A stretch of DNA of 64,000 bases from Odontesthes bonariensis (Eukaryota; Chordata; Actinopteri; Atheriniformes; Atherinopsidae). Positions within the stretch are counted from its first letter, which is position 1, and each line of letters begins with the position of its first letter. Positions 20,549 through 21,694 of this stretch are shown piece by piece. Where the stretch lies: NCBI RefSeq assembly GCF_027942865.1, contig NC_134520.1, forward strand, positions 6,211,501 to 6,275,500, written 5' to 3'. A model generated the notes under the pieces. The model had not been told where the DNA came from. It worked only from the letters and a program-made list of their open reading frames with translations, and ran no database searches. A program made the translations under genes and the position numbers.

Positions 20549-20655
20549 CCCATTTAGGCCGGGAAAGCATTGCCGCATTTCTACCTTTAAAGCCGGGGGC
20601 GCTGTTGCATTATTCTACCATTAAGGCTGGAAAAGCGTACACGTCTTTTTTTCCA
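20549..20655. repeat. left terminal inverted repeat (piggyBac-like)
   Basis: About 107 bp, paired with 21584-21690 in inverted orientation; differences include GCATTA versus GCGTTA and GGCTGG versus GGCCGG. The near identity suggests limited time since the copy was last mobilised. Confidence 0.9.
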
Positions 20656-20809
20656 GCAAAGGGTTGTTTTGCACCAATTTTCTTCAGATACTTTTATTTT
20701 CTTACATTTCTCCATACTTGGCCTACCTGGGGTTGAAAGTCTCGATAAATGCACAGCGTTTTAGCGGGCATATACCTGCTTTCGGCGAGTGTGACTCATA
20801 TTTTGAGCG

Positions 20810-20813
<4 letters not shown>

Positions 20814-20870
<57 letters not shown>
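20814..20870. repeat. (TA)n microsatellite, about 28 units
   Basis: Uninterrupted alternating TA tract inside the piggyBac-like element. Confidence 0.95.
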
Positions 20871-20875
<5 letters not shown>

Positions 20876-21142
20876 GTTAGATCAATTCTTTAATTTGAAG
20901 CTCAAGAACAAGCCGGAGTAATCTCAAGTTAAATGAAGTCTTTATTTCTGGCAACAAATTAAGTATCTCAGCGCTGGACTCAGTATGACAGAACTCTCGC
21001 AGGAAATCCGTCAGACAGAAATATTTTAATATTTCAAGATCACAATAATCTTCCAATTTAGAACTACAATAAAAAAAAAGTTTAAAAAAAAACCACAAAT
21101 AAAATACACTTCAATTGGATACTTTTTTAATTTATTTTCCCA

Positions 21143-21214
21143 AGCCACGCGGAGCTGCAGCATAAGGATGAAAGAGCCGCATGCGGCTCCGAAGCTGCGG
21201 CTTGCCGACCCCTG
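21143..21214. mobile_element. hAT terminus nested in piggyBac-like element
   Basis: Read on the minus strand, the segment begins CAGGGGTCGGCAAGCCG and continues with GAGCCGCATGCGGCTC, the well-known end of a vertebrate hAT family. The opposite end was not found inside the host element, so this is one end of a truncated insertion. Confidence 0.6.
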
Positions 21215-21275
21215 ATGTAGCAGAAAGCTGTGATTCTTACAAACTCAGTGTACCGAGTATATAACGTAAACTCAC

Positions 21276-21403
21276 TTTGAAGTAGTGCAGCAGGTCTCTG
21301 CAGGTGAGTTTTACTCCTCCAATTTCTTTTTCCACCAGATTTTCAGGTGACAGAAGTGCTGGGATGAGGTTAACCAGCACCTTCTTGAACTCCACATCGA
21401 TAT
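21276..21403 (-). pseudogene. captured atlastin (ATL) exon
   Basis: On the minus strand 128 bp lie between an AG acceptor (TTGTCTAAG) and a GTGAGT donor. The frame is open throughout and reads IDVEFKKVLVNLIPALLSPE, then NLVEKEIGGVKLTCRDLLHY and FK. This corresponds to the segment at the end of the GTPase domain and the start of the three-helix bundle in atlastins, the ER membrane-fusion GTPases. No other atlastin exon was found nearby, and the flanks lie inside an element with TTAA ends, so this is best read as an exon with bits of its introns picked up as genomic DNA by the transposon. It is not a retrocopy, because the splice sites are present. It is unlikely to make an atlastin alone. Confidence 0.75.
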
Positions 21404-21694
21404 CTTAGACAACGCACATATCAGAAAATGTCACCGCTTAAACAAGGTTTTTAATGCTTCAACAAATGCTGCTGGAAGCCTGTTTGAAATCAGCATTAGG
21501 CTGCTATGCCAGGTTTCTTAGTGACAGCAGTCTGCAAGTGTTTTGGGCAGATTATGTGGAATAACAGCCATGTTTTCTACATACAGGAAAAAAGACGTGT
21601 ACGCTTTCCCGGCCTTAATGGTAGAATAACGCAACAGCGCCCCCGGCTTTAAAGGTAGAAATGCGGCAATGCTTTCCCGGCCTAAATGGGTTAA

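Follow-up and report, generated by a model that had tools for sequence, protein, structure and literature searches.

Gene capture by DNA transposons has been reported in both plants and animals. The Pack-TYPE elements of plants belong to superfamilies other than piggyBac, and Helitrons are rolling-circle elements that have neither terminal inverted repeats (TIRs) nor TTAA. Pack-MULEs and other plant Pack-TYPE elements are non-autonomous DNA transposons that capture and shuffle coding DNA (PMC8903248), and in bats gene fragments have been captured and mobilised by Helitrons, DNA transposons of a vertebrate genome (PMC4778049). Turmoil-1 of C. elegans is an animal DNA transposon with protein-coding pieces in its inverted repeats (PMC2572040). 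Teratorn of medaka and its relatives are fish piggyBac-type elements with foreign DNA, Teratorn itself carrying a herpesvirus genome in a 180 kb element (PMC5601938, PMC5822658, PMC10175614). Among animal Pack-TIRs, 370 were counted in 100 genomes, mainly of the hAT (208) and Tc/mariner (115) types, with 8 in zebrafish; only four were multicopy, the frog example having three copies, and the word piggyBac is absent from the main text of that study (Tan et al. 2021, PMC8277862).

The element described here lies in a window of 64,000 nt (the whole stretch of DNA that was analysed) on contig C20 of the South American silverside fish Odontesthes bonariensis. It has in common with animal Pack-TIRs a non-TE host sequence between TIRs, a parental copy elsewhere (C4:35081556-35082221, unflanked by the element), target-site duplications and short junction microhomology; unlike the Pack-TIRs of that study, it is of piggyBac type, occupies about 60 dispersed loci, includes an entire exon together with its two splice sites, and has its left end duplicated (PMC8277862). 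Its membership of piggyBac is indicated by the TTAA duplication, by CCC/GGG termini with inverted repeats, and by a PF13843 fragment in a native relative. The TTAA specificity and the related transposase domain in the family are shared with Trichoplusia ni piggyBac, whose ends are asymmetric (PMC7351741), whereas here the left end is present twice in an element that has moved many times. Unlike Turmoil-1, it holds its coding DNA as one exon in the interior, and unlike Teratorn, it carries a host exon within a 1.1-kb non-autonomous element.

A first-pass annotation of this DNA had described exon capture by cut-and-paste elements as much less documented in fish than in plants, a view that needs correcting in the light of the animal captures, zebrafish included, already reported (PMC8277862). 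Gene-capturing elements of animals are known; among the publications listed, none reports a piggyBac one with two left ends and such strong amplification. Judged by title and the opening of the abstract, the publications listed for piggyBac with transduplication, Pack-type elements, capture and fish include no piggyBac element carrying a host exon, although Teratorn is among them, and of the papers listed for O. bonariensis none is, by title, about its transposable elements. Cut-and-paste gene capture in animals is mostly seen as single copies, and its start has to be guessed. Here a single genome contains the donor, the two junctions, relatives without the capture and dozens of apparently young copies, so that the capture step becomes readable base by base. 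We consider it very probable that the element is a Pack-type non-autonomous piggyBac that captured an atlastin-2 exon in one event by template switching, was mobilised in trans as a left-end/left-end element, and carries the exon as a neutral passenger.

The element and its donor gene

The element (window positions 20549-21690, 1142 bp) has CCC and GGG termini, as is the rule for piggyBac elements, and both its termini and the TTAA adjoining each end were correctly recognised in the first-pass annotation. Its near-identical inverted repeats, given there as about 107 bp, are indeed 97% complementary over 107 nt (20545-20651 and 21588-21694); this length includes the TTAA, so that the repeat proper measures 103 bp.

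Table 1. Features of the element in the window, with the corresponding donor intervals.
Feature	Position in window	Strand	Remarks
TTAA target-site copy, left	20545-20548		
Left terminal inverted repeat	20549-20651	+	103 bp, three units of ~34 bp
Arm from native piggyBac left end	20549-20679	+	131 bp
Captured atlastin-2 intron DNA, far piece	20677-20735	-	95% over 59 bp vs donor C4:35082163-35082221
Region without BLAST match in present-day donor gene	20736-21021		
Captured atlastin-2 intron-exon-intron segment	21022-21575	-	93.2% over 558 aligned columns vs donor C4:35081556-35082101
Splice donor GT	21274-21275	-	GTGAGT in element, GTACGT in donor gene
Atlastin exon	21276-21403	-	128 nt, phases 1/0, open in the donor's frame
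Splice acceptor AG	21404-21405	-	AAG in element, CAG in donor gene
Right arm, second and inverted copy of native left end	21581-21690	-	110 bp
TTAA target-site copy, right	21691-21694		
Two chimeric junction sequences of the element			CCTGTATGTAGAAAACATGG and GCACCAATTTTCTTCAG

The 128-bp minus-strand segment with acceptor, donor and open frame that had been noticed earlier proved to be a complete exon. Its reading frame starts at the third exon base and reads IDVEFKKVLVNLIPALLSPENLVEKEIGGVKLTCRDLLHYFK. All 13 phmmer hits of this peptide to solved structures at E<=1 were atlastins (best, atlastin-3, E 2.1e-8), in agreement with the original assignment and with no closer match to a gene of another kind, and a Pfam search with the 43-aa exon alone returned 0 families. 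A 32-nt exon pattern, searched at <=3 mismatches, had 54 matches in the genome and 0 in both control readings, which excludes chance.

A genome-wide profile search with PF02263 identified four loci with an atlastin-like exon series (on C4, C18, C22 and C2) and two weak single matches. The segment carried by the element is also present at the C4 locus (from 35073328 onward, plus strand), where element positions 474-1027 and 129-187 align at 93% and 95% to the two donor intervals of Table 1, and the donor exon (C4:35081728-35081855) differs from the majority of the element copies at 1 of 128 bases. An atlastin-2-like protein of Leuresthes tenuis aligned along this locus in ten ordered pieces (residues 17-533, 87-98% identical), among them exons before and after the captured one, and the terminal repeat of the element was not found in the 15.9 kb of the donor locus (C4:35072500-35088400). 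Given the ordered exons and the lack of the repeat, the donor is an ordinary atlastin-2-like gene, which makes specific the source that the first-pass annotation had given as an atlastin gene. The element carries intron on both sides of the exon; introns are thus retained and the insert is not a retrocopy. The other atlastin-like genes were rejected as donors, since C18 and C2 matched at only 68-70% over the exon region and C22 gave no DNA match.

Some further features of the captured DNA and its source were observed. In the donor, one border of the captured segment falls within a TTAA (C4:35081554-35081557; CATG-TTAA-ACATGG), and a second TTAA, at C4:35082229-35082232, lies about eight bases beyond the other border. 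On the minus strand, the captured intron opens (21022-21214) with the stretch CAGGGGTCGGCAAGC, which may resemble a hAT terminus, and the same remnant is present in the donor intron. The region without a BLAST match in the donor consists of a ~49-bp piece, ~19 bp in which a match to the donor can be seen by eye, a run of (AT)n and a piece of ~145 bp. The last of these (20877-21021), skipped in the alignments of many copies, is present in the window copy and several others and is absent from the donor and from many shorter copies.

Chimeric junctions and native relatives

Five relatives share the left end of the element and lack atlastin DNA (L080, L082-L085), and four were read through to the right end (with L088-L091). 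These four are about 795-1062 bp long and keep a 5' piece of the transposase gene, recognised in L085 as PF13843 (E 2.2e-7). Their left end is built of three ~34-bp units, and their right end shares only CCCATTTAGGCC with it. The right arm of the window copy is identical to the native left end at 109 of 110 positions (L084), compared with 12 bp shared with the native right end of the same relative. Capture and left-end duplication co-occur in every copy with both ends read, and at least 10 of the 40 repeat matches scored, from 490 candidates, are native elements without the exon. Judged by its ends, the element derives from a larger piggyBac family and carries the left end of that family on both sides.

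Wherever junctions of the copies were read, CCTGTATGTAGA meets AAACATGG on the right and GCACCAATT meets TTCTTCAG on the left, a uniformity that allows for point changes, deletions of small size and, on C7, a single right junction that is altered. At the matching points, the native relatives read CCTGTATAAGGG and GCACCAATTATTGACC; the donor has CATGTTAAACATGG on one side and TTCCATTTTCTTC on the other. With <=2 mismatches allowed, the genome contains 56 chimeric junctions of the left type, 51 of the right type and 298 native left junctions, with 0 in all controls. The donor differs from the majority of copies at 18 alignment columns, six of which form one 6-bp gap, and at these columns nearly all of the 18-27 lettered copies agree with the majority (exceptions, 15 of 24 and 16 of 19). 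Since the copies have in common the same two chimeric joins and nearly all donor differences, they point to one capture; the family is, on this comparison, the product of a single capture followed by amplification. The transduplication proposed in the first-pass annotation is supported by a donor found at base resolution, by an interior common to copies elsewhere and by TTAA flanks. The interior is shared by TIR copies at other loci, though many copies of the repeat, namely the native relatives, are without it.

We suggest that a native piggyBac element was being copied during replication or gap repair when the copying strand left the left end after 131 bp and entered the atlastin-2 intron on C4. 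Copying would have passed through ~0.67 kb of the gene with its one exon and come back to 110 bp of left end in inverted orientation. A piggyBac transposase acting in trans could then have moved this left-end/left-end product into TTAA sites and so spread it, and the three-repeat left end may contain all the sites needed. A model of replication-fork switching has been proposed for multicopy Pack-TIRs (PMC8277862). The evidence for template switching consists of overlaps of 2-3 bp at the junctions, read by eye. The left junction has a 3-bp overlap, ATT, and the right one a 2-bp overlap, AT, beyond which a few bases show no clean match to either parent. An autonomous element with this left end was not identified among the 150 of 783 candidates that were scored, in which the longest open frame was 271 aa; the genome has 116 PF13843 matches, many with long open frames.

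Plain template switching does not predict a donor TTAA at one border of the captured segment and close to the other, an arrangement that bears on another possible origin. Two piggyBac ends might have inserted in the atlastin intron, each at a TTAA flanking the exon, and moved together as a composite, or one end may have been bypassed, with the internal ends deleted later and the donor restored by precise excision. One such TTAA overlaps a captured edge and another lies about eight bases outside the other, and piggyBac excision is precise (PMC7351741). Against this, neither TTAA nor the native right end is kept at the junctions of the copies, the two arms break off at positions that bear no relation to each other (131 and 110 bp), and extra deletions would be required. 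We therefore regard a composite origin as unlikely and retain capture by template switching as the preferred reading.

Mobility of the two-left-ended product also has to be set against the moth element. For T. ni piggyBac, a two-left-ended LE35/LE35 construct was inactive in cells with the native enzyme, which speaks against our preferred reading, and worked to a lesser degree with a hyperactive one; added binding sites stimulated activity (PMC7351741). The O. bonariensis element thus offers a natural two-left-ended piggyBac for comparison with the inactivity of its moth counterpart. A tentative extension, which we find possible and somewhat doubtful, is that the capture made a better transposon. 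In exchanging the native right end for a second three-unit left end, with capture and end duplication as one event, it could have produced a symmetric, hyper-mobile piggyBac that spread a complete, frame-shifting exon of an ER-shaping GTPase, mainly near chromosome ends.

Dispersal of the copies

By pattern search, the 3' end of the exon occurs 54 times and its 5' end 26 times, the donor being counted in both numbers, with 0 in controls. The element-borne hits merged into 69 loci on 24 contigs, nine of them in one array on C2; hits within 4.5 kb were merged, a longer insertion would split one element into two, and two sites on C19 near 33.38 Mb may be a double count. An exon 3' end was present at 53 loci, with both ends at 23 (8 of them in the C2 array, leaving 15 dispersed loci) and the 3' end alone at 30. 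At 22 loci, alignments and sequences showed a deletion of 181 bp by which the acceptor and the first 24 bases of the exon have been lost. The 3'-only loci are not all of this type (those on C1, C25 at 10.16 Mb and C2 at 1.82 Mb are not), and two of the 22 deletion-junction loci fall outside the 30 or have an exon 3' end that has diverged beyond what the pattern picks up. For the composite copies on C19 (6.5 Mb) and C25, positions are approximate.

Among 21 copies with both ends read, TTAA was flush on both sides in 15 and one base off on one side in six, and the sequence next to the TTAA differed among the 21. Copies bearing the exon or a junction lean towards chromosome ends: dispersed loci lay within 15% of a contig end in 42 of 56 cases, versus 42 of 100 native relatives (Mann-Whitney p 0.0004). 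This comparison covered 56 of the 60 dispersed loci, leaving out two on C26, one on C27 and one right-junction-only site on C19, and 100 of 150 listed native hits, without C26 and C27.

Instead of capture, one could in principle think of a segmental duplication or of an element inserting into an ordinary atlastin gene, and nine of the 69 loci do lie in a single array on C2. The other 60 loci are dispersed, however, the copies read have TIRs and TTAA, and the element is without any other atlastin exon, so that we give this reading almost no weight; for the dispersed copies that were read, it is refuted. Gene entry was rejected for the window copy as well: the donor lies elsewhere and the PF02263 search found no further atlastin exon on contig C20, the neighbourhood in which, by the first-pass annotation, further atlastin exons of an ordinary gene would have refuted capture.

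The array itself, at C2:1.76-3.10 Mb (L028-L033, L036-L038), consists of nine element copies in segmentally duplicated DNA. Its exons are joined upstream to another sequence, 7 nt ahead of the exon start, and no recognisable gene was seen by eye in its units.

Pairwise differences among 19 full-type copies averaged 2.5%, compared with 4.1% between 20 copies and the donor. These values suggest that, in relative terms, the spread was young and later than the capture.

Fate of the captured exon

The selection and splice-site sample comprised 20 full-type and nine deletion-type copies for the family, with the C2 array counted as one copy. These 29 copies carry 31 distinct exon substitutions, 22 nonsynonymous and nine synonymous, against a neutral expectation of 68-76% nonsynonymous (p 0.53-1.0), in line with an absence of selection on the exon copies. 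The dN/dS comparison proposed in the first-pass annotation thus gave no sign of constraint. Substitution density in the exon (37/2477) was not lower than in the flanks (40/3164 and 15/1213).

Given its 128 nt and phases 1/0, the exon would shift the frame of any host transcript that included it. The copies might nevertheless act, either as a 128-nt cassette spliced into host transcripts, mostly as a frame-shifting poison exon, or through small RNAs matching atlastin-2, and AG and GTGAGT do persist in most of the full-type copies read. Such activity is quite improbable in our judgement, since the exon copies show no constraint and the deletion type, which has lost the acceptor, is found at 22 loci compared with the 15 dispersed loci that keep both exon ends. 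Additionally, of 105 protein hits to the exon, 104 have the GTPase domain of atlastins (PF02263) and the last bears the name partial atlastin-2, so that the search, within its length limits, showed no annotated fusion; the window copy, moreover, lies outside slco2a1. We infer that the exon is a neutral passenger without function. Same-origin exons with splice sites, scattered through one genome, provide a test of how frequently mobile exons are spliced.

The suggestion that the element, if mobile, could spread a splice-ready exon into introns needs the qualifications that inclusion would be frame-shifting and that the window copy lies outside the introns between the coding exons of slco2a1, ~9 kb downstream of its coding pieces. 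This gene lies on the minus strand from 52049 to 30776, in 13 coding pieces by tblastn. Insertion of the window copy in an slco2a1 intron was rejected on the basis of coding exons, the last coding piece ending at 30776. Elsewhere in the window, an open frame at 13884-14354 encodes a Spin-doc type zinc finger (PF18658, E 1.7e-10), and the open frames that follow, to about 15572, look by eye like a hAT-type transposase.
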